Source: Trichocoleus sp. FACHB-40
GTDB lineage: Bacteria; Cyanobacteriota; Cyanobacteriia; Cyanobacteriales; FACHB-T130
Length of the DNA stretch: 64,000 nucleotides
Assembly (NCBI RefSeq): GCF_014695915.1
Contig: NZ_JACJPF010000041.1
Coordinates: forward strand, 124,001-188,000
Direction: 5' to 3'
The position numbers and the translations under genes were made by a program. How positions within the stretch are numbered: the stretch's first letter is position 1; each line of letters begins with the position of its first letter. Positions 3,206-60,694 of the stretch are shown here, piece by piece. Under the pieces are notes generated by a model. The model did not search any database. It was given only the letters and a program-made list of their open reading frames with translations, and had not been told where the DNA came from.

Positions 3206-3228
3206 GTATAAGGAAGAGGGATGAATTT

Positions 3229-4452: not shown

Positions 4453-4644
4453 ATGGCACCTGCAAGCTATTCTCGGTTTCTTCGGTTTTTACAAGAAGAT
4501 TTGGCAATATCCAAAGCTTCAATTTCGATCGCTTTGCGGCATCGGGAAAACGATCCAGGGCCTTTGCCGATGATTTTATGGCAGTACGGTTTAGTAACGC
4601 TAGAACAGTTAGATCAAATTTATGATTGGCTGGAAACTGCATAA
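4453..4644 (+). CDS. DUF2949 family protein
   Basis: A 63-residue cyanobacterial protein reading MAPASYSRFLRFLQEDLAIS and ending LEQLDQIYDWLETA, the DUF2949 pattern, with the family's central HRENDPGPLPMILWQYGL block. Function unknown; no membrane segment or signal. ATG 4453 is chosen because a GGTGG lies about 10 bases upstream; a GTG at 4438 would add five residues not typical of the family. A strong terminator follows at 4761. Confidence 0.8.
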   Translation: MAPASYSRFLRFLQEDLAISKASISIALRHRENDPGPLPMILWQYGLVTLEQLDQIYDWLETA

Positions 4645-4760
4645 GAATTCATGACTCGGCGAGGAGCAAAAAAGTCATGTCAATATTGGGCTTTGGTATG
4701 ATCCTGACCCACAGAAGAAGACCTAGGAGGTTCAATCTGTTACAATTTATCCAAACAAAG

Positions 4761-4794
4761 AGAGCAGGTCGATAAAAGACCCGCTCTTTTTTGT
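4761..4794 (+). terminator. Rho-independent terminator after DUF2949 gene
   Basis: agagcaggtc (4761-4770) pairs with gacccgctct (4778-4787), nine of ten pairs, 7-base loop, followed by a run of T residues. It lies 117 bp past the DUF2949 stop. Confidence 0.8.
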
Positions 4795-4831
4795 TATTAG
4801 GACAAGGGTTTCGTTTTTCAGTAATAGATGT

Positions 4832-4925
4832 CTTTATAGCGTTTGTCAGTTGGCTGGAATATATTGTGGTTGTAACATTTGGTAGGGACGTGGCAATCAA
4901 AAAGCCCCTACAGAAGTACCGCACC
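4832..4925. repeat. Dispersed repeat, copy A
   Basis: The block tttatagcgtttgtcagttg...ggaatatattg...ggtagggacgtggcaat...cccctacag is an older copy of a block at 60813-60920, sharing the order and much of the text (tatagc, cagttg, ggaatatat, tagggac-tggcaat, cctacag). In copy B the end forms a perfect hairpin; here the hairpin is eroded. Non-coding, of the kind dispersed in cyanobacterial genomes. Confidence 0.6.
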
Positions 4926-4988
4926 CAACACTTGAATTGCTTTAATTGCAGCTTTCGCTTAATTAACATCAATACAACTTAGCTGAAA

Positions 4989-5123
4989 GTGCAAAATTTG
5001 ATTAAATATATAGTGGTAACACCCGTTGGTCGTCCGGGCTGGACAGGCGTGAAACTGGTGCTAAAACATCTTCCAACGTTAAAAGCAAAGTACACAGAAC
5101 TTCCGGAAGCTAAATGGGACTAG
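4989..5123 (+). CDS. Hypothetical small protein (44 aa)
   Basis: A GTG-initiated frame reading VQNLIKYIVVTPVGRPGW and ending TELPEAKWD, then TAG. The composition is protein-like (hydrophobic start, then a basic helix) and unlike the low-complexity translations around it. I do not recognise the family and see no strong ribosome-binding site. It could be a real small gene or the tail of a decayed one. Confidence 0.3.
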   Translation: MQNLIKYIVVTPVGRPGWTGVKLVLKHLPTLKAKYTELPEAKWD

Positions 5124-5144
5124 GTTACAACGATTTGATAATTG

Positions 5145-5167
5145 TAGGGCGGGCATTGCCCACCCTA
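5145..5167. terminator. Inverted repeat between convergent genes
   Basis: tagggcgggca / tgcccacccta (5145-5155, 5157-5167) is a near-perfect inverted repeat 21 bp after the aminotransferase stop. The gcccaccct type is a frequent cyanobacterial intergenic repeat and can serve as a transcription end; there is no T-run. Confidence 0.4.
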
Positions 5168-5187
5168 TGAAACTAATTACTAATCGC

Positions 5188-6342
5188 TTAAGATTGGGCA
5201 AACACTCTGGCAGCAGCCGCAACACCAGCACCGGGAGTAAAGCCTTCATATCCTACTTCGCGCAGGGTGGCTTCCAGGGAGGCAACAGCAGCGAGAATAT
5301 CGCGATCGCTCACAAATCCCAAGTGACCAATACGGAAGATTTTGCCTTTGAGATGGTCTTGTCCGCCAGCCAGAACGATGTCAAACCGCTTTTTCATCAC
5401 CGACCGGATTTTTTCGGAATCCACCCCAGTTGGTGCCACAGCAGTAATTGCCGGACTACCAAAACCGTCAGGGGCAAATAAAGGTAATGACAGCCCTTTC
5501 ATCGCTTCGCGGGTAGCATTCATCAAGCGCTGGTGCCGCCCGTAGATAGATTCCAACCCCTCAGCCTTCATCATCCTCAAGGCGGTATGCAATGCCACCA
5601 TCAGGTTAACTGGCGGAGTGAAGGGGGTAGTATTTTTAGCAGCATCTTTGCGATACTTGCCTAAATCCAGGTAGAAGCGGGGCAACTTAGCCGTTTTGTA
5701 AGCTTCCCAGGCTTTCGGCCCGACGGATACAAAGCCTAAACCAGGGGGAATCATGTAGGCTTTTTGGGAACCGGAAGCCACCACATCCAGCCCCCATTCG
5801 TCAATAGGCAAATTCACAGCCCCCAAGCTGGTGACAGCATCAACGATGATTAAAGCTTCGCCGTGGGCTTTGACATGACGGTTAATGGTTTCCAGATCGT
5901 TGAGAACACCCGTAGAAGTTTCGCTATGGGTGATAATAACCGCTTTGATTTGTTTGTCGGTGTCAGCTTCGAGTTTGGCGCGAATTTGTTCTGGATCTAG
6001 AGGTTGACCCCATTCGGCTGTAACTTTGTCAACATTTAAACCGAAAGCTTCGGATAATTCTGCCCAGCGATCGCCAAATTTGCCGTTACAGCCAACCAAC
6101 ACGCGATCGCCTGGACTCAAAAAGTTAATAATGCCAGCTTCCATCGCCCCCGTACCGCTGGCAGTTAAACACAGTACATCATTCTGTGTCTGGTGCAACC
6201 ATTTGAGGTTTTCTGTCACCTCTGCCATCAACTTGCCAAATTCGCCGCTGCGGTGTCCGAAGGGGTGCTTGGCTAAGGCTAGGAGTACCTGTTCCGGCAC
6301 TGGGGTAGGGCCGGGAATCATCAGCATTAGCTTGTCATCCAT
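5188..6342 (-). CDS. Class V aminotransferase (alanine/serine-glyoxylate type)
   Basis: A 384-residue PLP enzyme. Visible landmarks: the start IPGPTPVPEQVL, the cofactor-phosphate loop ASGTGAMEA (61-69), the Asp that pairs with the pyridine nitrogen in IIVDAVTSLG (168), and the Schiff-base Lys in SGSQKAYMIPPG (194). The family transfers amino groups from alanine or serine to glyoxylate, making glycine in photorespiration. In cyanobacteria the same protein is often annotated as a soluble hydrogenase 42-kDa subunit, a historical name. Its placement within 13 kb of lpdA and glcEF fits a role in the C2 cycle. Substrate choice cannot be settled by eye. Confidence 0.9.
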   Translation of the reverse strand: MDDKLMLMIPGPTPVPEQVLLALAKHPFGHRSGEFGKLMAEVTENLKWLHQTQNDVLCLTASGTGAMEAGIINFLSPGDRVLVGCNGKFGDRWAELSEAFGLNVDKVTAEWGQPLDPEQIRAKLEADTDKQIKAVIITHSETSTGVLNDLETINRHVKAHGEALIIVDAVTSLGAVNLPIDEWGLDVVASGSQKAYMIPPGLGFVSVGPKAWEAYKTAKLPRFYLDLGKYRKDAAKNTTPFTPPVNLMVALHTALRMMKAEGLESIYGRHQRLMNATREAMKGLSLPLFAPDGFGSPAITAVAPTGVDSEKIRSVMKKRFDIVLAGGQDHLKGKIFRIGHLGFVSDRDILAAVASLEATLREVGYEGFTPGAGVAAAARVFAQS

Positions 6343-46019: not shown

Positions 46020-49000
46020 TCAGTTAATTTTGATCCGAAAGCGCACGAAACCAAAGTTATTACCAGCAATATTAGAAATATTACCTAAATTTACAATTAT
46101 TGCACCATCAGGATTACCTTGATTAGGACAGGCATTACCCGCAGCCAATGGAGCAAGAGATGAGAAAAATGTCCCTACGTCAGCATCCGCTAAGTTAGTC
46201 AAAGAGGCACTTATTCCTGCTCGATTCACCAAAATACCTGCACCAGGACTAAAACTATCAGAGATAAAAGTTGTTCCAGTGGGAATCGCATCGCAGAATC
46301 TGACATTATTAACTGGGCTACCACCATCAGATAGGAAATAAATCGTGTATTCTACCTCATCACCACTTATTAAAGGTGTATTTCCCCCTAGCTTTGGAAC
46401 TCCCAATAACAGTTGAGCAAAGTTAGGAAAAGCTGTTTCATTGGGGTCGGCAGGTTCGGCTGGGACAAAGTTAGCGTACTGCGTTGCATTTACTCTCGTG
46501 ATTCTCTTCACCAACCGCAGACGCGCGGGACCACCAGCAGCTACTACTAGCTGTGTTGGGTCATTGTTTCCACCACCAGTGCCTTGATTTAAGTCTCCTG
46601 GCCCTGACACCGCATCGGTAGGATAGGAACTACCGGGAGGTAATCTCCCTCCATTTAATGTAGCAAGGGCTTGGTTGCTAATCGACGTTCCAGCAGCAGC
46701 TACCACTTGGACGCGGAACTTGATTGTCACCCTACCCCCGCCTGCACCAAGTTGCCCTGTGGCATTAGGATTGCTCAGATTAGTGTCTGTTGTACCGTTG
46801 AAATTAAAATTAGCTGTCACAGTTGTATTGTTGTTGGCAGCAGCAAAACCGTTAGTAGCTGTAAAAATATAACTGCCCGGTACGAAACTCAAACTGTTAG
46901 GCAAGGGGTCAATTACTAGAAAGCTACTAATTACGCTGGTGGAGTTATTGTTAGTGTAAGTAACGGTGTACTCTAATATGTCCCCGTTGGTGAGAGAGCC
47001 GCTGCCATCCGCGTCTACGGCTAAACGCACCGATTTGCTGCCGGAGGGATTCAAGGGAGTAACAAAGTTGATAATCGTCGGGTCGGCATTACTATCATTA
47101 GGTTGGTTCACATTACCGCCAGAGGAGACACTTCCTGGAGTGCCGGGGTTAACTCCAGAACCAGGCCCAGTAGGATTAGTAGAGTCACTGGCATCGGTCA
47201 GTACCGGATTACCTCCATCCCCTGTGTAATTGACGCTGCCCAGGTTAGCAACTGGACTAGCACTGTTAGGCAGAATCCGAGCGTTAAAGGTGAGAGTTGC
47301 TCTAATACCAGGATTTAGCGTTCCTGGTTGGGTAAAGGTGACGGAATTGCCAGTGCCATTAAAGCTAGTGCTGGGCAAGTTGGGGGAAAGCGCAAAGCCT
47401 GAGTCAATAGTTACCGTGTTAGAACCATCTCGTAACACCTGCAATTGAGTAGGGATGGTGTCGCTAATTACTACGCCTGTGATTGCTGCTGTATTGCTGC
47501 TGGGATTTTCGACAATAATGGTGTATTGAATATCATCGCCAGCGGTGAGCGTTCCGGTGTTGTCGTTGTCTCTCAAAAAGCGGACGGATTTGAACGTTAT
47601 CGGACCGATATTAACCGTTGTGGGGTCATTAGCTGTATTGTTGGATTTATTAGGGTTATCAGGATCGTTCGGATCGTCTCCAGGTGTGGTAACAGTAGCA
47701 GAGTTAGTAATATTTCCTGTCGCTGCACTGTCCACATTAACTCGCAGAGCGATCGCTGGCAAATTTTCGCCTGGTGCTACAATACCGCCAGTGTAGGTAC
47801 AGCTAACAACTTGCCCCGACGCCGAACAACTCCAATTGGTGCCAGTGGCAGAGACAAAACTCAGTCCGGCGGGCAGCGTATCTTGTACTGTGACAGTGCC
47901 TGTGGTAGAACCAGATGTAGGCAAGTTTCTCACGCTCAAGCTATAAACTCCTTGCTTACCTACAATAAAGGTGCCCGTGTGAGTCTTTTCAATCGCTAGA
48001 TCGGGAGCAATCGCAGGTAGGTTGGTGGCATCTGTAGCGCTGTTATTGTCTGGAGTCGGGTCGGTTAGACCGGAGTTTGGTGGTAGCTGAACGCTAGCTG
48101 TGTTTTCCATGCTTCCCGTCGCCCCAGCTTTCACCTGCGCTGTGACTGTAAAGGTCGCTGTACCGCTAGGAAGCAAGTTTACAGTTGTGTTAATATTGCC
48201 ACTGCCAGTCGGGGCATTGCAAATAGAGCCTGCTGTGGCGGTACAAGCCCATGTGGCATTTTCAAGTTGAATCGGTAAGGTATCGGTCACGCTGGCTCCG
48301 AATACGCCTGCCGGACCGTTATTAGTTGCCACAATAGTGTATGTAATGGTATCGCCTGGGTTGGCAATGTCCAAGTTATCGGTTTTGGTGATGCTCAGAT
48401 CCGCTACAGGGGGAACTAAAGTATCAATTCTCAGGCTTTGAATTTCATGAATATTTGTAAATGTTCCAGTTGAAGAAGCAAAGCCAAACCTCAACGTAGG
48501 AGGGAGAGTTTGGTTAACTAAGTTATTTCTACTGTCTTGTGTAACGTTATTACTCAAATCATAAGGCGGAACAACAAGTTGATATCCCGCACCAAAATCT
48601 ATTTCTACAGAGATTTTGTTATCTGGTGTCAGGGTAATTTTGGCTGTTCTTTTAATTACCCCGTCTCCAGCGTTGCGATCGGTAATAAATGTAGCAGCGA
48701 AGTCTATATCACCCAGATCGCCACTTCCGGTTAGGTATTCATAACCGGAAGCTTGATTTCCTCTCAAAGCTACTGAATCGGGTACTTGAACATTTCCACT
48801 GACTTTACCACCTACACGACCTTCGTTGTTATTGGAATAGTTGCCAAATTCATCAATTCCAACTCCCACATAACCACCAGCAATGCCCGGCCCGGCATTA
48901 GCACCAGTAGTGTTTGTCCCGTAACCTAGGGAGCCACCAAAAGCTCCAGCTTGTGTAGGTATTGGCTGTGAGCCATCAAGTAAAAAGAAATTAATTCCAT

Positions 49001-49472
49001 CTGCGCCTACTTCACCACCGTATGAGTAGAACTCGAAAGAAACTACCAGTCCTTGATTTGACGGAACCAGTTGATTGTAAAGAACAAAACCAGCTTGATC
49101 GTTCTTGGCAGGAGTAAGTCTGAGCGCCCCATTTCCAGGCGAATCGTATATTGTCCCATTAGTAGCGCCAACAGGAGCATTAGTAGTAGTGATGGGACAA
49201 CCAGGAATAAAACCAGAACCTGAAGTAGGTGGAGATGCCTGCAAGGGTGCTGCTGTTAGGCAAGGCGGATCTGAGACAGCATTTCCTATACCAAATGACC
49301 AGTTTGTATTGACAGGATTGAGAGTTGAGTTCTTAAAATTTTCATCAACTATAATCGTTTGAGCTGATACCTGCGAACTACTGGCTGCTAATAAGAAAAG
49401 CGCGCTGCCAGCGATCCAGAACAGATGCGGGAAAGAAAAAAAGGCTTTGAGAGGTTGACCCTGTAATTTCAC
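46020..49472 (-). CDS. Secreted DUF11-repeat protein with lectin-like start (1150 aa)
   Basis: A giant exported protein. The signal peptide ends SQVSA-Q (about 38). Residues 40-350 resemble an L-type lectin-like beta-sandwich (VSFEFYSYGGEVGADGINFFLL; GGYVGVGIDEFGNY). From 355 on are about five DUF11/TIGR01451 repeats (ADLSITKTDNLDIANPGDTITYTI; VTDTLP...). Two repeats start with an EF-hand-like loop, DxDxSGxxTxGD (DNDNTGTLTAGDD; DADGSGSLTNGD). The last 170 residues, ending GFVRFRIKIN, are homologous to the end of the neighbouring protein. GTG start at 49472. No LPXTG or membrane anchor. Presumed surface or matrix protein. Confidence 0.85.
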   Translation of the reverse strand: MKLQGQPLKAFFSFPHLFWIAGSALFLLAASSSQVSAQTIIVDENFKNSTLNPVNTNWSFGIGNAVSDPPCLTAAPLQASPPTSGSGFIPGCPITTTNAPVGATNGTIYDSPGNGALRLTPAKNDQAGFVLYNQLVPSNQGLVVSFEFYSYGGEVGADGINFFLLDGSQPIPTQAGAFGGSLGYGTNTTGANAGPGIAGGYVGVGIDEFGNYSNNNEGRVGGKVSGNVQVPDSVALRGNQASGYEYLTGSGDLGDIDFAATFITDRNAGDGVIKRTAKITLTPDNKISVEIDFGAGYQLVVPPYDLSNNVTQDSRNNLVNQTLPPTLRFGFASSTGTFTNIHEIQSLRIDTLVPPVADLSITKTDNLDIANPGDTITYTIVATNNGPAGVFGASVTDTLPIQLENATWACTATAGSICNAPTGSGNINTTVNLLPSGTATFTVTAQVKAGATGSMENTASVQLPPNSGLTDPTPDNNSATDATNLPAIAPDLAIEKTHTGTFIVGKQGVYSLSVRNLPTSGSTTGTVTVQDTLPAGLSFVSATGTNWSCSASGQVVSCTYTGGIVAPGENLPAIALRVNVDSAATGNITNSATVTTPGDDPNDPDNPNKSNNTANDPTTVNIGPITFKSVRFLRDNDNTGTLTAGDDIQYTIIVENPSSNTAAITGVVISDTIPTQLQVLRDGSNTVTIDSGFALSPNLPSTSFNGTGNSVTFTQPGTLNPGIRATLTFNARILPNSASPVANLGSVNYTGDGGNPVLTDASDSTNPTGPGSGVNPGTPGSVSSGGNVNQPNDSNADPTIINFVTPLNPSGSKSVRLAVDADGSGSLTNGDILEYTVTYTNNNSTSVISSFLVIDPLPNSLSFVPGSYIFTATNGFAAANNNTTVTANFNFNGTTDTNLSNPNATGQLGAGGGRVTIKFRVQVVAAAGTSISNQALATLNGGRLPPGSSYPTDAVSGPGDLNQGTGGGNNDPTQLVVAAGGPARLRLVKRITRVNATQYANFVPAEPADPNETAFPNFAQLLLGVPKLGGNTPLISGDEVEYTIYFLSDGGSPVNNVRFCDAIPTGTTFISDSFSPGAGILVNRAGISASLTNLADADVGTFFSSLAPLAAGNACPNQGNPDGAIIVNLGNISNIAGNNFGFVRFRIKIN

Positions 49473-49584
49473 GTTTGCTTGTTATGAAGGAAAACCTGAA
49501 AGGAAAATTGCCGAACGTAATTGAGATTTTTTTTTCTAGGAATAGGAACTAATCGCTTTATAATTTCACGTGGTAATCGACGCA

Positions 49585-52500
49585 TTAATTAATTTTGACG
49601 CGGAAGCGAGTAAAACCATAATTGCTACCCGTTGCATTGGAAATATTGCCAAAATTGACAATTACTGTCCCATCAGCATTATTTTGGCTAGGGCAAGCAT
49701 TACCCGCAGGCAAAGGAGTTAAAGGCGAGAAAAATGTCCCTTCATCTGCATCTAAAACATTAGTTCGGGGAGCAACAGTCCCGGATTGATTCACGGAAAT
49801 TCCGGCACCAGCTCCAAAACTGTCAGGGATAAACGTTGTCGCAGCGGGAACCGGATCGCATAGTCTGACATTGTTAGCGATCGCAGTACCATCAGAAAGG
49901 TAATAAATGGTGTATTCCACCTCATCGCCGCTTTGCAAAGATGTCTCAGAGGCTAACTGGGAAACTCCTACTGGTGACAATTGCGACCAGCCAGCAGCGT
50001 TATCATTGTCATCAGTTGGGTCATCCACAAAGCTTACAAAGTTAACCCCGCTAAGCGGCACACCACCCCGACTAATTGATGTAATTCGCTTCACCAAACG
50101 CAGACGCGGGTTTCCAACATTTCCAACTACGTTGACTACAGTCGGTTCATCATCCGCAGGATTAGGAAGGTTCCCCTGGTTATTACCGTCATCTATGACT
50201 TGAGGCAAATCGCCTTCATTTTGCGTCGCATCGCTGACAGATAAATCAACGGTTCCACCTGTAGATGTAGCAGTAGCTTGGTTGAGAATCTGTGTACCAG
50301 CTGGCGCTGTGATCACTGCTTGGAACTTGATAACCACCTGGGAGCCATTTCCCCCTAAATTTCCCAAAGATGTTGGGTTAGTCAGGTTCTGGTCAGTTGT
50401 GCCGTTGAAATTAGGATTTCCTGTCACCGTTGTTCCAGCACCAGAGGCGGTAAAGCTGTAACTCCCTGGAACGAAACGCAACTTACTGGTGTCGATGCGG
50501 TCAGTCACTAGCAAATTGGTGACTGGAGTAGGAGCGCCATTAAAGTAGGTGATGGTGTATTCAACAGTATCCCCAGTGGTGACGGAACCGCTAGCATCTG
50601 CGTCGTTGGATAGACGAACTGATTTGATGCCAGTGGGCGTGACTGGGTTGGGTTGAATAGTTGTAGTATTGGTTGACGTGTTGTTGTCAGGATTGGGGTC
50701 GGTGACATCATTAGGTCGCGTAACCGTTGCCGTGTTGGTCAATTCTCCAGATAGGGTAATGGGAGAGATGGCACCTTGTACTGTGAAAGTGGCAACAGCC
50801 CCGCTATTGAGATTTACCGTAGTGTTGATAGCATTCCCCGTACCGCTAGCTTGTCCGCAACTACCAGTACCCGTAGTAATGGCGCAAGTCCAAGTTACTC
50901 CGGTGATTTGAGCGGGAACAGTGTCTGTCACTGTTGCTCCGGTTACGTTAGAAGGGCCGTTGTTGGTGACGGTGATGTTGTAGGTAATGGGACTCCCTGC
51001 AACGACTGGGTTAGTTGTAAGGCTTTTTTGAATTTGCAAATCGGCTGCTGATATCCTGATGCCTGTTGTAAGATCAGTGACTGTAGAGGGGTAGTATGTC
51101 CACGTATCAATACCTCTGTCATTACCAAAGAGGTTAGTAAACCCATGAGCGCCATTAATACTGGAAACCCCTCCCAAAGCGTTTACAGGAGTGGGCGCTC
51201 CAGCAACTTGTTGATTATTAGTTAAAGGAGCGTCGTTATAGTAGACCTCAAAAGGATTGGGAGCCGGTAGTGTTGGCGCAGCTGGCTCATTGAGTCGTTC
51301 GATAATCAGACCTTCCGGGTTGTTTTCTGGGTCTAGAAACGGAAAATGAATTTCACCCGCACTGAGTACAATTTGCGCTCCGTAAGGGATATCTCTAGCA
51401 GAAACATTCACTCCATTGGCATCTAAGCCATCCCAAGGTACAGTGTTGACCCCAGGCTCTGCCACACCAACCAGTACGCGATCGTTGGCGTTGCCGTATG
51501 TACTGTCTCCATTGAGATCGAGAACAATTCTGAAACTGCCCTGTGAAGGGGTGTTAAAGCTGAAAGTACCTCCCAAGGGGTCAGTAGTACCAGCTTGACC
51601 GCTAGTCCCCTCTGTGCCTGTAAATGTAAAATCAGTGGGAGTAGGGGGTGCCACGGCTGGTGTTAGTAGCCATGTGCGACCGCCACTAGCTGGACTTATG
51701 GGCGCTTCCAGCGGCAGGCTTGGACTGGGCCGATTAAAGAAGATTTTATAGGTGACATCCGTCCCGAAATCTGGCTGATCCGGGTTATATACGTTACTTC
51801 CTGCAAGCGGAACAGATTGGTAAATTGGACCGCTGGTTGGATTTGCTGTGAAACCTTTGTTATTGGCAAAGAAGATAAATCCAAAAGGGTCGAGACGGTT
51901 CAGGTCGATTCGGTAGAGATAACCTTCATCGGTGAGAACAAAGCCTTGGGCATCGAGACTTTGCCCATTATCTCCCAGGTTGAGAGACAGATAATTTGCA
52001 TAGGCTCGACCGGGGATAGCTGTATTTCCGTTGGCGACTGTGACATCCCAAGCTGTCACCACACCAACATTGGGCTGAGTCCAAGGCTCGTCAGCATTGC
52101 GTGCGGTTGGGTTGTCAGCATTGCCAATGGCATTAGGATTTGGGCTGATAAAGTCAATTTCCCAAATTCCCGCTCCTGCTTCTGTAGTCTGAGTTGGGGT
52201 AATTATACAGGGAGTGTAACCTACGGGATTGAGGGGGGCTGGACCTGCAAGCTCTTGCGCTCGGTTGACAATCTGACCGACTGCACCACAAGAGGTAAAA
52301 GTAGTCCTATTGGGCGGTCTATATTCGATCCTGCCACTTGTTCCTATACCGGCGGCACTGGAACCAAGATAGATTGTTTCTCCTGGATTCGCGTAAACTC
52401 GAATTCTGGTTCGACGCGGGATAGGAGTACCCAGAAAAGGATCGTTTCGATATTCTAAAAATGGGCGAGCGCCTGTGTTGTTGGTCAGTTCCCGACTGCC

Positions 52501-52626
52501 TTCAGCATATGCAACTTCACTACCAGCACTAATGGCACAGATGGCAAGGGCAAGGCTACCGCAAAGGCGACTCCAGCGGCTAAAGGGAGTTTGATTTGTT
52601 GGGGAATGCGGGTAAAGTTTCAACAT
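49585..52626 (-). CDS. Secreted DUF11-repeat protein (1013 aa)
   Basis: An exported protein with a signal peptide (cleavage near AYA-EG, about 42). Residues 45-530 form a large unrecognised beta-rich region (GARPFLEYRNDPFLGTP; GRAYANYLSLNLGDNGQ; NTVPWDGLDANGVNV). DUF11 repeats follow (ADLQIQKSLTTNPVVAGSPITYNI), one beginning with the DADASGSVTTGD loop. The final 350 residues parallel the neighbour (NFNGTTD-NL-NP; GDEVEYTIYYLSDG; end GFTRFRVKIN), so the two arose by tandem duplication. ATG 52626. It lies 112 bp before the other DUF11 gene. Confidence 0.85.
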   Translation of the reverse strand: MLKLYPHSPTNQTPFSRWSRLCGSLALAICAISAGSEVAYAEGSRELTNNTGARPFLEYRNDPFLGTPIPRRTRIRVYANPGETIYLGSSAAGIGTSGRIEYRPPNRTTFTSCGAVGQIVNRAQELAGPAPLNPVGYTPCIITPTQTTEAGAGIWEIDFISPNPNAIGNADNPTARNADEPWTQPNVGVVTAWDVTVANGNTAIPGRAYANYLSLNLGDNGQSLDAQGFVLTDEGYLYRIDLNRLDPFGFIFFANNKGFTANPTSGPIYQSVPLAGSNVYNPDQPDFGTDVTYKIFFNRPSPSLPLEAPISPASGGRTWLLTPAVAPPTPTDFTFTGTEGTSGQAGTTDPLGGTFSFNTPSQGSFRIVLDLNGDSTYGNANDRVLVGVAEPGVNTVPWDGLDANGVNVSARDIPYGAQIVLSAGEIHFPFLDPENNPEGLIIERLNEPAAPTLPAPNPFEVYYNDAPLTNNQQVAGAPTPVNALGGVSSINGAHGFTNLFGNDRGIDTWTYYPSTVTDLTTGIRISAADLQIQKSLTTNPVVAGSPITYNITVTNNGPSNVTGATVTDTVPAQITGVTWTCAITTGTGSCGQASGTGNAINTTVNLNSGAVATFTVQGAISPITLSGELTNTATVTRPNDVTDPNPDNNTSTNTTTIQPNPVTPTGIKSVRLSNDADASGSVTTGDTVEYTITYFNGAPTPVTNLLVTDRIDTSKLRFVPGSYSFTASGAGTTVTGNPNFNGTTDQNLTNPTSLGNLGGNGSQVVIKFQAVITAPAGTQILNQATATSTGGTVDLSVSDATQNEGDLPQVIDDGNNQGNLPNPADDEPTVVNVVGNVGNPRLRLVKRITSISRGGVPLSGVNFVSFVDDPTDDNDNAAGWSQLSPVGVSQLASETSLQSGDEVEYTIYYLSDGTAIANNVRLCDPVPAATTFIPDSFGAGAGISVNQSGTVAPRTNVLDADEGTFFSPLTPLPAGNACPSQNNADGTVIVNFGNISNATGSNYGFTRFRVKIN

Positions 52627-52733
52627 CAAACTAACAGTTTCCTCACACTTTGTCTGGCAATATCATCAAAAAGTACAAAGCTCTCATAAAGAATTATTTT
52701 TTTCTTTTGCATGAGAGCATGAGAGCCTTTTTC

Positions 52734-54827
52734 CTACTCCAACTGCAAATCTTGTTCTTGAACAAATAGATCGATGCCTCTAGCATCTCTGAAGATAAAT
52801 TCGACGCGACGATTACGGGCATGATCTAGACGGCTTCTGCCAATTACTCGCGGCTGACTTTCACCCAAAGCGCGAATTGTCATTCGTTCTGGGGGAATTC
52901 CCTGACGCAGTAAGTAATTTCTCACAGCGATCGCGCGTCGATTTGATAAGTTCAGATTATAGGCATCGCTGGCTCTAGGATCGGTGTGTCCCCGAAGTTC
53001 AATGACGATTTGGGGATTTTCTCGTAAAACTTGGGCAATTCGGTTGAGAATTCTGGCACTCTCTGGACTCAGGGTGGCTTTATCGAGGGCAAAGTGTACG
53101 TTGGTTGGGACGCTAATTCTGATTGGTTCTGGCGGTGTGGGTTCTGGTTCTGGTTCTTCCGGCGGCTGCTGTACTACAGGCGGGACAGGCTCGGTGGTAC
53201 ATTGAGGAATTGTCCCCAGTCTGCTTCGCAAGATATTCCTGCTGGTGAAGTTGGTGGTGGAAGTGAGGTTTATCCGGTCGCCGCCTGGTGAGACAATTTC
53301 AGCATTGGCGGCGGCTTCAGAGGTGCCGAATTTTGGGATAGTAGTGATCGCGCTTACTAATTCCCCTGGTTGCATCTCCACACTGGCGCTAAATTTCCCC
53401 TCTTCATCCGCTACAACTCTAGTCAGGGGTTCGCTTAAAGGGCCATAGGATATCCCGGCTTCTTTCTGAACCCGATAAATTGACACCTCTGAACCCGGAT
53501 CGGCGGTGCCTAAGATATTAGTTGTAGTACCCACCGTATAAAATTCCGAACTTACAAATTGCGGGGGATTTATGGCAGAGTTACCTGTATCAAGACGGCG
53601 ATTTTTGGAATTGCGTAGTGGGTTGGGCCCGTCTCCCCGTTGGTAGGCTTGTACGTTCACATTTTCCTGTGCTACTAAGTCAATGCTTAGGCCCTCTAAG
53701 TTATTAAAACGATTGCCTAGGATGATGTTGCGATCGCTCTTAGGATAAGCCGCCACTACAACACCAGGGCCAGTTTGATTGCTAATTTGGTTATTATTCA
53801 CCTGGTGGCCATCTCCCATCAGATAAACTCCTGCGCGACGAAAGCGGCGACCATTATATGTAATCTGGTTATCGTTAATCTGCGCTGAGCCTTCCGGCTT
53901 GAACAAATAGACACCACTACCATCGTTTCCGCAAATCAAATTTGAGTTAATTTGAGCTTTTTCAATCTCCCCTTCCAATCGGATAGCATCCGGCATCCCA
54001 GCAATTCCATTACCAACAATGATGTTTTCTGCAACTTGCAAATTGTTGGCTTTTACAGCGCTAATTATCCCACTACCATCGTGGTAAGAAATTCGGTTTC
54101 GTCGGATTGTTGTTCCTAAGCTGTTAAACACATATACCCCAAATGCCGAAGTAGTTTGAGGAACTTTTTGATCTAGTGGAATCCCTAACCAGTTGTTCTC
54201 AATTACTACATTTTTTGGAGCATTTTCCGGTGTCTGTTTTCCTTGATCGCCAACAACAGCAACAGACTCAGGACTATCAATGAAAATATCTGCTGGTGGT
54301 AAAGTGGCAGTAGCCTCAAGACGGGACGTGAAACCGTAAAGACTCAAACCGCGAATTGTTACCCCATCAGCAACAATTGTTAAGCCGCGAAATACCTCTT
54401 GATCGGCTGCGGGAGTTATTGTAATCGAAGGAATTGGAATTGCAATTTCCGCAGTTGCAGATTTTTCGGCATCATACCCCGGTTGGGTTGTACCATCTAT
54501 CACCAATCCCGGAGAGGATAGCGGTGGCAAAACGTCAACTAGGCGGATAGTAGTTTCTGCGGCTGGCAAATCAAAGGCAATTAGCGAACTATTTCCAATA
54601 GGTGAAACCAGCGTTTGTTCAGTTGTACTCAGGCGCTCTAAGGGCAACGTTCCATTGGCAATCTCAATAGCTTCGCGCAAAGTAAGAGCGCTATCAGGAT
54701 TGACTGCTCCATCCCGATTACTATTAACAACAATCCTAAAATTTGCTGTTTGAGCAGTTCCAGTGAAAGGCAAAAAGCAAAAGTAACTCGGCAAAAGAAA
54801 GAAGGTAAAAATAGTTTTCTTTTTCAT
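52734..54827 (-). CDS. Beta-helix / OmpA-family cell-surface protein
   Basis: A 697-residue exported protein. Signal peptide to TGTAQ (about 26); a CSLREA-like motif (ALTLREAIEIANG); a right-handed beta-helix (about 130-380) with stacked VIENNWLG, TIRRNRIS, LQVAENIIVGN, QINDNQI turns; an Ig-like linker (GTADPGSEVSIYRV); a Pro/Glu spacer; and a C-terminal OmpA domain (FALDKATLSPES; ELRGHTDPRAS; LSNRRAIAVRNYL), which binds peptidoglycan. It therefore likely bridges the wall and outer surface. Begins 8 bp after the barrel gene. Confidence 0.88.
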   Translation of the reverse strand: MKKKTIFTFFLLPSYFCFLPFTGTAQTANFRIVVNSNRDGAVNPDSALTLREAIEIANGTLPLERLSTTEQTLVSPIGNSSLIAFDLPAAETTIRLVDVLPPLSSPGLVIDGTTQPGYDAEKSATAEIAIPIPSITITPAADQEVFRGLTIVADGVTIRGLSLYGFTSRLEATATLPPADIFIDSPESVAVVGDQGKQTPENAPKNVVIENNWLGIPLDQKVPQTTSAFGVYVFNSLGTTIRRNRISYHDGSGIISAVKANNLQVAENIIVGNGIAGMPDAIRLEGEIEKAQINSNLICGNDGSGVYLFKPEGSAQINDNQITYNGRRFRRAGVYLMGDGHQVNNNQISNQTGPGVVVAAYPKSDRNIILGNRFNNLEGLSIDLVAQENVNVQAYQRGDGPNPLRNSKNRRLDTGNSAINPPQFVSSEFYTVGTTTNILGTADPGSEVSIYRVQKEAGISYGPLSEPLTRVVADEEGKFSASVEMQPGELVSAITTIPKFGTSEAAANAEIVSPGGDRINLTSTTNFTSRNILRSRLGTIPQCTTEPVPPVVQQPPEEPEPEPTPPEPIRISVPTNVHFALDKATLSPESARILNRIAQVLRENPQIVIELRGHTDPRASDAYNLNLSNRRAIAVRNYLLRQGIPPERMTIRALGESQPRVIGRSRLDHARNRRVEFIFRDARGIDLFVQEQDLQLE

Positions 54828-54835
54828 GTTTCTTT

Positions 54836-57800
54836 TTACTCTTGACTTTCTGTTGCTACAGGTTGTACCAAAGATTCTTGCTGCTGGGGTGGTGCAACTT
54901 TTTGTCGTCCAAAGCCGCCAAATAGCTCGTTTACCTTCAGCGTCAAACCGAAATAAATCCCACCATCCGACCGATAGCCGCTAAAATCGCGATCGTCCAC
55001 ACTACCAAAGCTATATCCCAACGAAGCTCGTAAATCAGGCGTTACATAATAACCCGCTTCTACAGCAAAACCTGTTTCGTTGAAATTCACATCCGGCTGA
55101 CCAATCCAGCGTCCTTCTCCCGCTACATCCCAGCGGTAGCCCAATCGATAAGTCACCCGCATTTGTGTTAAAAACACGGTGGAAGAATTGCTGAAGTTGT
55201 TGGATAAATAAGTTTCGCTTTGGCGCACCGCCCCTTTACCGTAAAATTCCCACCGCCAGGAAGGAGCATATATCGCTTCAGCAGCAAAAACGTGATCTGT
55301 GTATCCCGTACCAGTTCCTAACAGCAATGTTTCAGGAATTGTCGAAGGATTGCGGCGATATTCATAGCTGAGTAAAGCGTTAAATTTATCCGAGACTGGG
55401 TTGCGGTAAGCCATGCCCAGCTTGATATCTACCGTGTCTCCCAATGCCCGTAATAATTGGTTTGCGCCATTGGCTTGTTGATAGCGGAACAAAGCAGTTA
55501 GAGAAGGTGAAAGTTTCCCAGCAGCACCCGCAGCGATAACAGTATTGTTACCACCAGATCCGGTACGATGTTCGACGCGGGCGGAGGCTTGGAAGTTGGG
55601 GTTATCAGTGTATTCGAGTCCCACACTGTAGGCATCGCCGCCGACAATCCCTAAAGCAGATGCACTTTGACCTGTGGCATAGGGTTGGGCAAATCGTTGT
55701 CCAGCAGCAGTGCGCCCAAACTGGTCGCTGAAGATATGCTCGTAACCGAGCAGGACTCGCAAACCTGGGGCGATTGCCCAGGTATGATTTAAACCGACGG
55801 CTCCCTGACCAGTGATGCTGTTGAAGCCGCTAATAATCGAGTAGCGACCTGTGATGGAGGTGTTTTCGCCTATTTTCTGTTCTACGATTGTATCCAAGCT
55901 GCTGATCGAGTCGCGCCCAAATACTCTTGTATTTACAAATTGGTGCGCGAGTCGCAGGCTAACGCCTTCCATTACCTCGTAGTCGAGTCCGAAAGTAGTG
56001 CGGTTGGGATAAAGTGGGTCGCTGTCGTCCAGGTTTAGCTCGTTTTGGGCGCGGAAGGTGAGGGCGCGACTCAGGGGAATGTTGGCGCGGGAGACGATTT
56101 GGCTGGCATCACTGTCGAAGGTATCGCCAAGACGATCGTCGCGGGAGCGATTGACGTATTCTAGGCTGAGATCGGCAGCACCAAATCTTTGCAAAACCCC
56201 TGCGCGGATGGTGGTGAGGGAATTATCGACTCGTTCTCCGGGGATGGGTTGGGGTTGGGGATCGAAGATGTCGAAAAAGTTGATCCTTTCGGCGGGAGCA
56301 ATACCAAAGTTAATTTCGTGGTCGTAGCTGGCACTTACTTGGGTGGTGGTAGTAACTTGGGTCGCGATGCTAGCGCCGTATCTGGTTTGTCCGGGGGTGA
56401 AGCTGGTGGTGGCGTTGTTGGCAAAGCCTTCTTCCACCGAACGGTAATAACCACGGGCTAAGATAGTACGAGCGATCGCGCCATATGCTTCCAATCGATA
56501 GGCATTTCCTGTCACATTTCCCAAAAAGGGATTGTTGTTCCTTGAGTGGGCATATTCCCCAACAATTTGCCCGTCTTTGCCCAAGGGAACTAGGAAATCT
56601 GCCCCATACAGTTCAAAATCTTGCGCCCCTTCGTCTTGTCGCCAATAACTCGCCCCCAGCCAACTTTGTTGCCCAAACTCTTGTGAGAAATTGTATTGCA
56701 ACCGTCCAGCATAGATATTCGTGCTGTCGCCTGGTGTAGCTTCATGCTGGTAAGTCACCACAATTCGCCGTACCTGAGTGACACCAAAGGGGTCAAACTC
56801 TGTAGCAAAGACGGGACGGCGGAACAGCAGTGTCCCCCGGTCGTAGTCAATTTCGTAGTCTGCACCGCGAAATAGTTGTTTGCGCGATGTAACGGTTCCG
56901 GGGCGATTAATTTCCTCTGTTTCTACAAAAACATTTTCGCTGCCAGGAATCAGCAGGCGGCGGGAGAGAAAGTAATAGCCGCTAGTGCCGCTGGGAGCAA
57001 TGGTGTCTCGCTGGAAACCTTCGACATCCGGGCTATACAGGGCAGTAATTTGTAAATTGCCCAGGTTGTAGTTGCCCTTGAACCCGTGCAGTTGACGATT
57101 AGTGGCGCTATATAGTTGGGAGGCGCGGGAAAATTCTGTGGTATTGTAGTCGCCCCACATCCCATAGTCTGGTTCGGAACCCGGAACTGGAGAAGTACGT
57201 TCCATCCGCAGATAGACGCTATCTGTAGAGGGGGTTAGATAATCGACTGTGGAGCTATCGCCGTAGACGGGATATTGTTGTTCGCAGAATTGGGGGCCTC
57301 GGAATAGGCGGGTGATGCCATCGCAGGTTTCGTTGAGGTTGCGGGCGCTATTATATGCTCCTGTAAATAGCCATTCCCCGACTTTCCCTGTGGCGAAGAC
57401 AGCAGCACTCAAATCAATGCCCATGCCTTCGTCGATGGTATCGGGGTCGAGGAAATCACGACGAGAACCCCAGTAATTTGTACCTCTAGAGCCAATCCGT
57501 AAATTTATCACGCCCGAAGCTATGGAGGGGCGCAGGTTGGTAATAAATTCTACCTGGGTAAAAGTTTCTAATTCATTGGTGTAGTTTGCCTGTTTAGTGG
57601 GTAATAAGTAGTCGCTTTGGGTAGGTAATCCTACTTGAGGATTGATTGGGCGATCGCTTTGTCTAGGTAATCCACCAACTTCAGGACTGATGGCTCGATT
57701 TTCAGTCAAAGGCGGCAATGCTGTTGGTGTGGAGCTATTTTCTTGCGTCCGATTGATTTCCTCGATCCGTTCTCGTTTCTCTGTGGTAGTTGTGGCAGCA

Positions 57801-58957
57801 CGAATGCGGACTTTTTGAGCTTCCAATCCGGATTGCAGTTCGGCGGCAAATTGTCCTTCCTTGGCAACGACCTGAAATCCGGGTAGGTCTTTGTCGTCGT
57901 CAGCACCGATAAATTTACCCGCACTGGCAGTTAAAGTTACTACCGCATCTTCGCGGATTAATTCTCCGTTTTCATCGGTGATTTTGCCTTCCAGCTTAAT
58001 TGTGGAACGACCATCAGCGCGAACGCGGGCATCTCCCACTGGAGATATTTGTATGCGCTCAGTTGTGTCTTTAACATTTAGTTGGAGAGTAACTGGCGTG
58101 CCTTGTGCAGCTTGGATTGCGATCGCGTTCTCGCCTTTCTCCAAAGGAATGTTATACCAAACCTGAGTAGTGATATTCTGTGCCTCGTTTCGCTCAACAC
58201 TAGAGCGAATTTTAGGATCGAGAGGCTTTTTGTTGACGGTGACTTGTATCTGAGACTGGGAATTGTACTGAACTACAAGGTTAGTGGAACGCGCTCCTAT
58301 TTCTTTACTCTTGGGGGCAAGAATCCGGACTTCTGTGGGTGATAAAGTGCTTTCATTGCCGGATTCTTCAGCTTGAGCATTAGTTTGCGATACAGATTCC
58401 CTCAGTTCACTATTAGTTGGCGCTTCCTTTGTAGAATCCTGTGTTTCCTGGGGTATCGGGTTGCTAGGCGATTGGGATTGAGCTAACTCTTTAACTTCTG
58501 TTTGATTTCCCTCTTTCCCTTCAAAACGCGGGGAAGATAAAGACGCTTCCTGCAAAAATTCGGGTAAAGCCGCGGGTGTTGCAGCCTGCGTTTGTTGAGG
58601 TAGAGATTCACTTTGCAATAGCAAGTTTAGCGGTAGCGCTGCTGTGTCTGACCCCTCCCCAATCGCTTGCTGAAGTCCGTAAAGAGGCAACGTTTGGGGT
58701 AAATTCTCTGCTGGTAAGACTTCTAAATTCTCTGTTGTCGCTTCTTCGGTAGCCGTCTCCTCAACAATGGGAGAGATATCTGAATCCTGAACCTCAAACT
58801 CTGAATCTTTCTTTGCTCCGTCCGAAGATTGTACAGGTAGTTCATCAGCCTTAACAGATCGGGGAAGCAGAAAATAAACTGTAAAAACTAAAAACAAAGA
58901 AAAGGAAGAAAAGATTTTTTCTTTTGCTTTGGCATGATTGCCTTTTGCCTTATTCAT
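54836..58957 (-). CDS. Predicted outer-membrane barrel with Ig-like region (1373 aa)
   Basis: The largest gene of the cluster. Signal peptide (SLFLVFTVYFLLPRSVKA); a long acidic/Ser/Gln linker to about 200; two Ig-like domains (220-290: ARSTNLVVQYNSQSQIQVTV; 300-385: invasin/Big_1-like GRSTIKLEGKITDENGEL); then 470-1340 of alternating aromatic strands typical of a large beta-barrel (GEWLFTGAYNSAR; DYEIDYDRGTLLFRRPV; YEYRRNP; TYRLGYRWDVAGEGRW; AGYYVTPDLRASLGYSFGS). No TonB plug was recognised. The end is a 30-residue Gln-rich tail after FGLTLKVNELFGG. ATG overlaps the upstream stop (ATGA), so it is coupled to the DUF11/SdrD-B gene. Confidence 0.82.
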   Translation of the reverse strand: MNKAKGNHAKAKEKIFSSFSLFLVFTVYFLLPRSVKADELPVQSSDGAKKDSEFEVQDSDISPIVEETATEEATTENLEVLPAENLPQTLPLYGLQQAIGEGSDTAALPLNLLLQSESLPQQTQAATPAALPEFLQEASLSSPRFEGKEGNQTEVKELAQSQSPSNPIPQETQDSTKEAPTNSELRESVSQTNAQAEESGNESTLSPTEVRILAPKSKEIGARSTNLVVQYNSQSQIQVTVNKKPLDPKIRSSVERNEAQNITTQVWYNIPLEKGENAIAIQAAQGTPVTLQLNVKDTTERIQISPVGDARVRADGRSTIKLEGKITDENGELIREDAVVTLTASAGKFIGADDDKDLPGFQVVAKEGQFAAELQSGLEAQKVRIRAATTTTEKRERIEEINRTQENSSTPTALPPLTENRAISPEVGGLPRQSDRPINPQVGLPTQSDYLLPTKQANYTNELETFTQVEFITNLRPSIASGVINLRIGSRGTNYWGSRRDFLDPDTIDEGMGIDLSAAVFATGKVGEWLFTGAYNSARNLNETCDGITRLFRGPQFCEQQYPVYGDSSTVDYLTPSTDSVYLRMERTSPVPGSEPDYGMWGDYNTTEFSRASQLYSATNRQLHGFKGNYNLGNLQITALYSPDVEGFQRDTIAPSGTSGYYFLSRRLLIPGSENVFVETEEINRPGTVTSRKQLFRGADYEIDYDRGTLLFRRPVFATEFDPFGVTQVRRIVVTYQHEATPGDSTNIYAGRLQYNFSQEFGQQSWLGASYWRQDEGAQDFELYGADFLVPLGKDGQIVGEYAHSRNNNPFLGNVTGNAYRLEAYGAIARTILARGYYRSVEEGFANNATTSFTPGQTRYGASIATQVTTTTQVSASYDHEINFGIAPAERINFFDIFDPQPQPIPGERVDNSLTTIRAGVLQRFGAADLSLEYVNRSRDDRLGDTFDSDASQIVSRANIPLSRALTFRAQNELNLDDSDPLYPNRTTFGLDYEVMEGVSLRLAHQFVNTRVFGRDSISSLDTIVEQKIGENTSITGRYSIISGFNSITGQGAVGLNHTWAIAPGLRVLLGYEHIFSDQFGRTAAGQRFAQPYATGQSASALGIVGGDAYSVGLEYTDNPNFQASARVEHRTGSGGNNTVIAAGAAGKLSPSLTALFRYQQANGANQLLRALGDTVDIKLGMAYRNPVSDKFNALLSYEYRRNPSTIPETLLLGTGTGYTDHVFAAEAIYAPSWRWEFYGKGAVRQSETYLSNNFSNSSTVFLTQMRVTYRLGYRWDVAGEGRWIGQPDVNFNETGFAVEAGYYVTPDLRASLGYSFGSVDDRDFSGYRSDGGIYFGLTLKVNELFGGFGRQKVAPPQQQESLVQPVATESQE

Positions 58958-59871
58958 GGCTGCCCCTCGCCATACGCGGGTGTCACTCCGAAATTCATTC
59001 TTACCAGTCCTCCTGGTTGCAGCTGCACCAAGCGAGACTGACTATTGCGCTCAATAAAGCGTTTGTTTGGAGCCAGCGTGTATCCCGGCAGACTGGTTAA
59101 GTCCAGAGTGCCTGTACGATAACCGGATAGCACATTGGCTAGAGAAAACAGCCCATTCGGATCGGTAGTGATGCGGTTGCCGTCATCCATAAAAATCACG
59201 GCATTTGGCACTCCAGGCTCTCCTGGCTGCTGTTCGCCGTCAAAGTTTTTATCGACAAATACCCGCCCAATTAGGGTGCCACAGTCTGATAAAATTCCAG
59301 GTCTAATGCGTAGCTGATGCGTGGCAATGTTGCTTCTGGCTTCCTGAGCTTGATTTTTCCCGTCACCCCGCACTGCGTCTGGTGTTACTACGGCGGCATA
59401 GACAATGTTCAATGTCTCATTGGGAGCCAATCTGGGATAAATAAAGGTAATTGTCCGGTTAGAGGTGCTAGCTGGCTGTAATGTTACTGGTGTAGTTGAG
59501 CTGCCAGTAGACAGAGAGCCTTGCAAAGCTTTGGGCAAATATTGCAAACCGACAGGCAGTTTGTCTGTGATGACGATGTTGCTGGCGGCTGCTGTACCAG
59601 TGTTTTTCAGCGCGAGGCGGTAAATAACGGTATCGCCCGGTTCAGCTGCCGCGCGATCGCCTGTTTTAATCAACTCTAGTACAGCTTGTCCTGCTGTAAG
59701 CGTTGTTTGATTCGATTGCACGCCGCCTGGTGGCAGATTGTCACCATTAGCGGAAGCTGAATTTAAGATTTCAACTGAGCCAACAGGTAACGACTGATAG
59801 GCAATCGAACAAGTCAATATGACTGTTAGAGGTAGGTAGATACGCTCTAACAGATTTAACAGGTATTTCAT
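58954..59871 (-). CDS. DUF11/SdrD-B exported protein (305 aa)
   Basis: First gene of the surface cluster. A signal peptide-like hydrophobic start (IYLPLTVILTCSIAYQSLP), one DUF11 repeat (about 60-195: GDTVIYRLALKNTGTAAASNIVITD; KLPVGLQYLP), then an SdrD-B-type calcium-binding domain (GRVFVDKNFDGEQQPGEPG; TDPNGLFSLANV). ATG 59871 is used; a TTG 6 bases earlier is less likely. The stop overlaps the barrel start by four bases. Upstream is 1 kb of non-coding DNA, so the operon promoter should be there. Confidence 0.85.
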   Translation of the reverse strand: MKYLLNLLERIYLPLTVILTCSIAYQSLPVGSVEILNSASANGDNLPPGGVQSNQTTLTAGQAVLELIKTGDRAAAEPGDTVIYRLALKNTGTAAASNIVITDKLPVGLQYLPKALQGSLSTGSSTTPVTLQPASTSNRTITFIYPRLAPNETLNIVYAAVVTPDAVRGDGKNQAQEARSNIATHQLRIRPGILSDCGTLIGRVFVDKNFDGEQQPGEPGVPNAVIFMDDGNRITTDPNGLFSLANVLSGYRTGTLDLTSLPGYTLAPNKRFIERNSQSRLVQLQPGGLVRMNFGVTPAYGEGQP

Positions 59872-60462
59872 CAGCAAAGATAACTAAATAAAACACCCCA
59901 TTGCTGGACTGTTCAAGAATTTGAGGCGTAGATTACCTGATGATTTATAACAATAAAACCCCGATGAAGTGAAAGTTTAACATGACCAGGTTGCTACGAC
60001 AATATATCTGAAATTTATTTGCTCCGCAAGAGGATTTTCTGAGCCGTTTAAAATCTTACACTAAAGTTATTGCTTCTGCTTTGAGCTAAATTTCATACTT
60101 TACAACACTTATAAGAATCAGTGCCTTGTTTTGGTTCGGCTGTCTTGATGGCAGTAGATTCAAAGACAAGGTAGAAAGCGATCGCTTTATCCCTACGGAA
60201 GGCTATAACACCAATGAAGCTTTTAGCGTAGCATGACGGACATCAACCTCCAGTAAGTACATACTTAGGTACTAATACACCATAATTGCAATTGATGGCA
60301 AACTTTCTAGCCCCTGTAATAGTAACCGCCGCTGCGATTAAGAACTAAGCAGAGGAAATATAATATTATCATCTATCCAGAGAGTTAGATATTTGAGATT
60401 TAAAATTAAGATTTATTTTAAGGTAACTTGCGGCTCAAGATAACAATAGCCTAATTTACTAA

Positions 60463-60517
60463 AATTCAGCCAAATTGCTGATTTTGTACGATGTTTTATC
60501 AGCAATTTGGCTGAATT
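60463..60517. terminator. Perfect 20-bp hairpin
   Basis: The arms 60463-60482 (aattcagccaaattgctgat) and 60498-60517 are exact complements around a 15-base loop; A-rich before, T-rich after. It could be a bidirectional terminator, but no gene adjoins it. Confidence 0.6.
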
Positions 60518-60657: not shown

Positions 60658-60694
60658 ACAAAGGCTGCTGAGTTTGTAGCAGCCTTTGTATTTT
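60658..60694 (+). terminator. Orphan rho-independent terminator
   Basis: acaaaggctgct pairs perfectly with agcagcctttgt (8-base loop), then attttt. On the plus strand no gene precedes it, so it may end a small RNA starting in 60518-60650. Confidence 0.7.

Follow-up and report, generated by a model that had tools for sequence, protein, structure and literature searches.

In two-partner and type XI secretion the cargo gene adjoins the gene of its outer-membrane barrel, and in chaperone-usher pili a barrel of this kind (FimD, PapC) assembles immunoglobulin (Ig)-like subunits. PMC7463736 describes type IX secretion, a system of Bacteroidota, as combining an N-terminal Sec signal with a conserved C-terminal domain (CTD) of ~80 residues on various cargos, a 36-stranded barrel, SprA, with a bore of ~7 nm that admits folded cargo, and PorE, a component that binds peptidoglycan. 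Fibrillar adhesins may have stalks of DUF11, a domain since renamed CLIPPER; according to PMC12617251, a Gram-negative example has been solved with a Lys-Asp-Asn isopeptide bond, and DUF7925 is listed as a predicted isopeptide holder. Here we describe a five-gene locus, A to E, in a 64,000-nucleotide stretch of Trichocoleus sp. FACHB-40 (hereafter the window), which on balance we read from its sequence as probably a dedicated outer-membrane export or assembly platform together with cargo that carries a C-terminal sorting domain. In our best reading, which argues by analogy, the platform would work like type IX while being unrelated to it by sequence. The ORF (open reading frame) listing places the five genes on the minus strand, head-to-tail, at 46020-59877.

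58954..59871, minus strand: gene A, secreted DUF11 and SdrD_B-like protein, start taken at the ATG at 59871
54836..58957, minus strand: gene B, predicted giant outer-membrane barrel, 1373 residues
52734..54827, minus strand: gene C, 697 residues, beta-helix with C-terminal OmpA of the peptidoglycan-binding type
49585..52629, minus strand: gene D, 1014 residues, large DUF11 protein ending in the CTD
46020..49472, minus strand: gene E, 1150 residues, large DUF11 protein whose head is lectin-like (below the Pfam cut-off) and whose end is the CTD

The locus shares with type IX an N-terminal signal-like stretch, a C-terminal domain on varied cargo, a predicted giant barrel and a putative peptidoglycan-binding component, and it differs in the domain itself, which here has ~190 residues and is DUF11/CnaA-like, against ~80 residues in type IX. 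By sequence, B matched no SprA/Sov-type translocon in a profile search of the PDB, which holds type IX translocon entries, or in NCBIfam, and D and E gave no match to the type IX type A or type B C-terminal tail in Pfam or NCBIfam at E ≤ 1, DUF11-type and other Ig or lectin matches appearing instead. As in two-partner and type XI secretion the cargo gene stands beside the barrel gene, and as in fibrillar adhesins with a DUF11/CLIPPER stalk D and E are long, secreted and built of tandem DUF11 domains. B had no POTRA/TpsB or DUF560 (Slam) match (Pfam, E ≤ 1), and no usher or pilus-chaperone family was found in A to E (B at Pfam E ≤ 1, and NCBIfam) or in the scanned A, X and Y proteins of other loci. 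Membership of the two-partner, type XI, usher and TonB receptor or porin groups was rejected for want of a family match. PEP-CTERM/exosortase sorting was likewise rejected, as no PEP-CTERM tail was matched in D or E (NCBIfam, E ≤ 1) and both end in a folded domain.

None of the scanned sequence families of known outer-membrane export machines fits the system. An earlier note on this DNA, made from the window's sequence, knew of no described machine with this set of proteins, and the open-licence literature on DUF11, DUF7925, SdrD_B and cyanobacterial secretion likewise yielded no description of an A-B-CTD system. In Synechococcus PCC 11901 the signal peptide of a DUF11 protein sent 14.3% of a reporter outside (PMC13297417), a result that concerns the signal peptide only.

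Results

A conserved cassette. B was searched against 60 genomes, namely that of the window and those of 59 relatives. Matches came from 30, substantial in 29 and a fragment of 94 residues in one (G040), and the surroundings of the matches (up to 20 kb) were compared for gene content. The recurring same-strand order is A, B, often C, then at least one large DUF11 protein. A scan of the collection with two patterns, one of them from the conserved insert of B, returned 379 barrel-coding stretches, and the best 80 of these 379 are the named cyanobacterial loci, in which near relatives are over-represented. In 73 of the 80, A precedes B, directly in 70 and with one ORF of 182-211 residues between them in 3; in the remaining 7 loci the contig ends ≤210 bp from the B ORF. 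A D/E-type gene, that is, one encoding the CTD, lies downstream in 63; among the other 17, the contig end cuts 10, and 7 loci truly have no CTD gene. C is present in 41. The same order was seen, wherever the genes were present, in 17 further loci (L203-L219, from 11 genomes of the order and class), and no gene family outside the cassette was common to more than 16 of 81 loci. Because the order recurs in different chromosomal contexts, the arrangement is not due to chance.

Many genomes carry a two-gene extension 5' of A that is absent from the window's genome. Its product X is often ~850 residues long with the Pfam domain DUF7925, and its product Y, of ~190 residues, has little beyond one DUF11 domain. 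DUF7925 was detected in 15 of the 60 genomes, each of which also has B; within this sample it was not found in the window's genome or its four family members. The core unit is A, B and a CTD protein, with X-Y as a frequent upstream extension. The earlier note had taken the five genes for one system. They do prove to be conserved together, in that A-B linkage (73/80) and the D/E-type gene (63/80) recur, so that one system is now backed by a conserved cassette; the exact set of five does not stand as the unit, C being found in just over half of the loci and X-Y often added, and that note had missed both the CTD common to D and E and the X-Y extension.

Two peculiarities of the barrel genes were seen in passing. 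One genome has, besides a typical cassette, a second, divergent barrel (L060, on G056:C62, 6007-8973; 24-27% identity), and behind it an ORF of 1975 residues (1-5925) that is cut by the contig end. In G353, G387, G409, G420, G430, G440 and G447 (genus g163) and in G095 and G442 (g37), a single in-frame stop, mostly TAG and TAA in G440, interrupts the best barrel match; a frameshift common to these species, a damaged copy or recoding might explain it.

The C-terminal domain. D and E have in common a stretch of ~190 residues at the extreme C-terminus.

49588..50145, minus strand: CTD of D, with KRIT ... GDEVEYTIYxLS ... CDxxP ... GFxRFRVKIN, then the stop
46023..46595, minus strand: CTD of E, from the profile match and conserved motifs

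Its motifs are LRLVKRIT, GDEVEYTIYFLS, CDxxP, two conserved cysteines and the ending GFxRFRVKI(N/D/K). With an iterated profile, a CTD was called confident if it lay in a closed ORF and matched over at least 100 profile positions at E < 1e-10. Among 112 such domains, 104 end exactly at the C-terminus of the protein, 7 one residue before it and 1 13 residues before it; the profile seeds were C-terminal stretches, and the search does not force the end position. Internal DUF11 domains of the same proteins scored weakly against the profile. The heads in front of the domain fall into 22 dissimilar BLAST groups, or 19 under a 60-residue rule (123 of 130 proteins, leaving out ORFs cut at the locus edge; with these, 26 groups and 127 of 130), and into 22 or 21 among the 86 CTD proteins with a hydrophobic start. 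Seven scanned CTD proteins bear beta-helix, cadherin/CshA-like, GEVED, DUF6923 or SdrD_B domains.

The model of the CTD (mean predicted local distance difference test score, pLDDT, 83.5) is an Ig-like sandwich, nearest in fold to CnaA-type pilin domains including CppA, BcpA and RrgB (VIA-align Z 6-8, maximum 8.1). Foldseek gave no match at E ≤ 0.001, its first-ranked entry being the Thermus protein TTHA1873, on which we found no paper. A profile comparison relates the end of X to the CTD (probability 97.6, E 3.5e-12; commonest ending ..RKVN, 24 of 49) and likewise Y (probability 96.2, E 2.7e-9); a sequence search of the PDB with one Y protein returned nothing. In some DUF11 domains of D and E a regular expression located Lys, Asp and Asn motifs, which are candidates for intramolecular isopeptide triads. 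An isopeptide bond from a first-strand Lys to the terminal residue of the CTD was considered and rejected, the last residue being variable (D 32, N 30, K 28, E 13, Q 5, others 3; n = 111).

Co-occurrence of domain and barrel. In the relatives, with the window's own genome included, the CTD is found in 28 of 29 genomes with a substantial B and in 1 of 31 without. A phylum sample of 292 genomes has a near-complete barrel in 32, a confident CTD in the same 32 and in none of the 260 others, and in a family sample of 145 the CTD occurs in 102 of 103 genomes with a barrel and 0 of 42 without (Fisher p = 1e-14, 2e-43 and 7e-36 for relatives, phylum and family, respectively). Six genera (g49, g48, g155, g182, g19 and g27) include both species with the pair and species with neither. 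In these counts the fragment in G040 and partial or divergent matches (G086, G089, G100 and G178) were scored as no barrel, although in G089 and G100 (E about 1e-55) the relationship is genuine; partial CTD matches at E 1e-4 to 2e-8 (G008, G010, G086, G100, G147, G159 and G295) were scored as no CTD, and G207 was scored positive on a partial match (1.5e-18). Generic DUF11 as the cause of the CTD matches was rejected, since DUF11 is present in 14 of the 31 barrel-free relatives; for the same reason the CTD, and not simply DUF11, appears to be the specific partner of B.

Were the CTD a tag for B, one would expect the 7 genomes without a CTD gene at the barrel to encode one elsewhere, and 7 of 7 do (best E 2.7e-55 to 8.6e-48), on contigs that differ in size from the barrel contig. 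CTD proteins are also encoded on contigs other than that of the barrel in several further genomes.

Co-divergence and two types of locus. We compared distances between barrels with those between CTDs in the 79 of 98 loci that have an adjacent closed CTD gene (one locus counting twice, as L125 and L213). These loci are of two types, 29 with X/Y and 50 without. Barrel and CTD distances were correlated (Mantel r 0.74, a value that none of 2000 permutations reached), and the nearest CTD came from a locus of the same type in 79 of 79. When near-copies were removed and L125 was left out as a relative of the own genome, the 64 remaining loci gave r 0.68, again unreached in 2000 permutations, and every one of the 64 had its nearest CTD within its own type. 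Six genomes have more than one cassette (two or three), and in these the CTD was nearer to a foreign CTD of the same type than to its sister in 10 of 10 pairs. The endings also differ, being mostly ..KVK in XY loci and ..VRV/I(D/N/E) in many others.

Because linked genes co-diverge by descent, we also examined 32 CTDs that do not lie next to a barrel, a few of whose genomes were typed by DUF7925 on another contig. One (G439) was untypable, and 30 of the 31 typed had as their nearest neighbors CTDs of the barrel type present in the same genome (28 of 29 XY and 2 of 2 of the other, A-type).

Predicted structure of B. Residues 200-1373 of B were modelled with AlphaFold from 66 sequences (mean pLDDT 70.1, predicted template modelling score, pTM, 0.64). 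The model consists of Ig-like domains, a poorly predicted linker and then 47 strands by DSSP, 40 of them of at least 8 residues, 36 of these outside a central insert.

57788..58342, minus strand: B residues ~206-390, Ig-like domains before the barrel, from model strands and PDB matches
54929..57574, minus strand: B residues ~462-1343, predicted barrel region, from the strand count on the model
56795..57019, minus strand: B residues ~647-721, conserved insert GYYFLSRR..GSE...DYEIDYDRGTL, source of a scan pattern

The Ig-like part, which is probably periplasmic, matches intimin D0/D1 and glycosidase Ig domains in the PDB. Mean column identity over the barrel region is 61% in an alignment of 24 sequences. 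The insert falls within the stretch (519-806) that is common to Proteobacteria and is plug-like by position, from which a plug role may be supposed. Foldseek ranked SlpA first, with glycosidase Ig domains, TonB receptors, FimD and SprA complexes also listed, all query template modelling scores being ≤0.19 among the 50 matches listed. The best VIA-align rows are ushers, with Z 15.1 (root mean square deviation, r.m.s.d., 16.2 over 376) and Z 15.0 (r.m.s.d. 7.6 over 308); given the high r.m.s.d., this resemblance of the modelled B to FimD and PapC is perhaps one of shared barrel shape only. A profile of the 24 barrel sequences, run against the PDB with hmmsearch, matched only a designed barrel (E 0.13). 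On the model, B is an outer-membrane barrel of unusual size, with its exact strand number and closure not fixed; the non-membrane beta fold that the earlier note had weighed for this region is not what was predicted.

Relatives outside cyanobacteria. A search of plasmid proteins with B found relatives in 25 records, two of them cyanobacterial; the other 23 we take from their genus names to be Proteobacteria, and they share 24-31% identity over 17-64% of B. Five of the 25 records were examined in detail. In Acinetobacter haemolyticus, A and B form one ORF of 2008 residues, which in a small search set matched the A profile at 8e-40 and the B profile at 9e-48 and 7e-25; behind it come a separate OmpA gene and a DUF11 protein of 978 residues ending in ..LYFGIKLN. 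In Sulfitobacter, Devosia and Eleftheria (Alpha- and Betaproteobacteria) the gene ahead of the barrel encodes a giant DUF11/SdrD_B protein that resembles A in its C-terminal part, as the A profile shows. The A profile matched four proteobacterial proteins, with best stretches at E 8e-40 to 2e-18 in this small set. In Eleftheria the OmpA module forms the N-terminal end of the barrel protein, in two cyanobacteria (G032 and G055) it stands at the C-terminal side of B, and in the window it is on C; these moves of the OmpA and A/B modules point to one machine. Divergent barrels outside the class (G100 and G086) lie near DUF11-like proteins, identified by eye or with the X/Y profiles, that end in ..VRFRVQIN or ..IRFRVRIN.

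Other features of these regions were also noted. Upstream of the Acinetobacter fusion (L220, 6261-8464) are four short DUF11/NEW3 ORFs that resemble pieces of one X-like protein. In G100, of another class, an ORF judged by eye to be S-layer-homology-like (L200, 11906-12640) lies between A-like pieces and the barrel. Several barrel relatives from Devosia, Sulfitobacter, Pelagibacterium, Phyllobacterium and other plasmids are annotated as 'TonB-dependent receptor'.

Gene calls and flanks. The ORF of A (58954-59877) opens at a TTG at 59877 and has 307 residues, with an in-frame ATG at 59871. A and B overlap by 4 bp, C begins 8 bp past B, and the C-D and D-E gaps are 104 and 112 bp. All five proteins have a signal-like hydrophobic N-terminal stretch, as judged by eye. 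In Pfam and NCBIfam, A matched DUF11 (3.4e-11) and, under the cut-off, SdrD_B (3.1e-4); C a right-handed beta-helix (5.4e-13) and OmpA; D DUF11 (2.3e-25); and E DUF11 (2.7e-43) with a sub-threshold legume-lectin-like head. B has no family above its cut-off in either database.

52809..53093, minus strand: OmpA domain of C, residues 579-673, Pfam PF00691, 3.1e-22

The five exported ORFs of the earlier note, with their coordinates, the A/B overlap and the B-C spacing, agree with the ORF listing, and its domain assignments (DUF11/SdrD-B, beta-helix/OmpA and the pair of giant DUF11 proteins) agree with the family searches. Downstream, the locus is flanked by a gene for a pseudouridine synthase and one for a PP2C-type phosphatase (Pfam), and upstream by a gene that we take from its sequence to be ileS. 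The interval of ~1 kb between ileS and A has no listed ORF of at least 100 residues, and it contains copies of a TCAGC...GCTGA inverted repeat with a 13-pair terminator-like stem on the plus strand (60466-60514, 60658-60689). A promoter and terminator scan came out near the shuffled expectation, and no use was made of its result.

Discussion

The platform that we propose would operate as follows. Signal peptides, as read from the sequences, would take all five proteins to the periplasm. B is predicted to be a very large barrel in the outer membrane, its Ig-like domains lying in the periplasm, and A is its constant partner, as linkage and the A+B fusion show. The OmpA module, here on C, would by its family tie the platform to peptidoglycan. 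D and E would be the cargo, long Ig-like adhesive proteins that are probably stabilized by isopeptide bonds. The CTD would be the sorting signal recognized by A/B, as its co-occurrence, terminal position, dispersal and co-divergence suggest. B may then pass or thread the cargo to the surface, hold it there by the CTD, or both, which is the least certain step. X, with its CTD-like end, and Y, a bare DUF11 domain, would be accessory parts of one of two machine types. The earlier note had supposed that the barrel handles the DUF11 proteins; this has gained support from co-occurrence and co-divergence, and B itself may, as we infer, be the channel for export.

Several observations weigh against this proposal. 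The co-occurrence p-values ignore phylogeny and come from samples that share genomes; two genomes (G006 and G350) have a barrel and no confident CTD, the contig ending at the expected place of the CTD in both, and G029 has a CTD and no barrel, the adjoining sequence reading N and so not being judgeable. Linked genes co-diverge by descent anyway, an objection that the unlinked CTDs reduce and do not remove: their one miss (L090) is a near tie in which the nearest CTD is of the other type, just 2 of the 31 cases are A-type, and the XY genomes might also have a second barrel type. A hydrophobic N-terminal stretch was seen in just 87 of 130 CTD proteins by a crude test, some of the ORFs being cut or opening too early. 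The model of B is moderate (pLDDT 70, pTM 0.64); the modelled CTD has an ordinary CnaA-like fold and could equally be a polymerization or stalk-base domain; and the apparent kinship of X and the CTD comes from a single profile comparison of sequences (49 against 130).

Four other accounts of the locus were weighed. B and A might be a surface dock and not a channel, the CTD proteins crossing by another route and anchoring to B/A by the CTD. All of the co-occurrence and co-divergence data suit such a binding pair equally, and the OmpA module suggests a load-bearing anchor; against this, 36-40 strands are far beyond what a dock needs, and no further gene family recurs often beside the locus, although an exporter could be encoded at some other place in the genome. 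We think a dock unlikely, if well worth keeping in mind, and from sequence the two roles do not separate on genomic evidence. That the DUF11 proteins polymerize through the CTD into a fiber or surface layer, with B/A as its base, would suit the CnaA-like fold and its likeness to the shaft-pilin domains of CppA, BcpA and RrgB (Z 6-8), as well as a Y protein that has little beyond one DUF11 domain and is related to the CTD. We consider this improbable, as a CTD that occurs once, at the terminus, behind 19-22 groups of dissimilar heads looks like a tag and not a repeated subunit.

It is very improbable, in our judgment, that the cassette genes merely travel together by shared ancestry and do not co-operate physically. 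Linked genes are co-inherited, and the co-occurrence tests are uncorrected for phylogeny, yet CTDs also occur unlinked and still track the barrel type, and in the searched genomes a confident CTD without a barrel is confined to G029, which cannot be judged. Scarcely credible is an uptake receptor or porin of TonB-dependent type to which the DUF11 proteins are incidental: its support is the receptor annotation on H4, H8, H9 and H13-H16 of the 25 plasmid matches, whereas B has no TonB receptor or plug match in Pfam at E ≤ 1, and six proteins from proteobacterial loci, four of them with the barrel, have no TonB match at E ≤ 0.01.

The export platform with its sorting domain is thus the reading that we prefer. 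A more far-reaching proposal, which we put forward tentatively as possible and somewhat short of probable, is a new secretion system in which a single-chain barrel of 36-40 strands, together with A, would export folded, isopeptide-locked Ig-type adhesins that carry a CnaA-like sorting CTD. Two types, one having X-Y and one lacking it, would co-exist and each read a tag variant of its own; the system would be widespread in cyanobacteria, with relatives in Proteobacteria. DUF11 domains with isopeptide bonds would be hard to unfold, so a bore like that described for SprA would make sense, a speculation invited by the size of B.

Little is known of how cyanobacteria place large adhesive proteins on their surface, a matter that concerns sheaths, mats and symbioses. 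If the proposal is true, the pair of tag and barrel would let the surface cargo of many genomes be read by one domain and would be an independent example of type IX logic. As isopeptide-locked domains are not easily threaded unfolded, folded export would become directly testable with the CTD-barrel pair.

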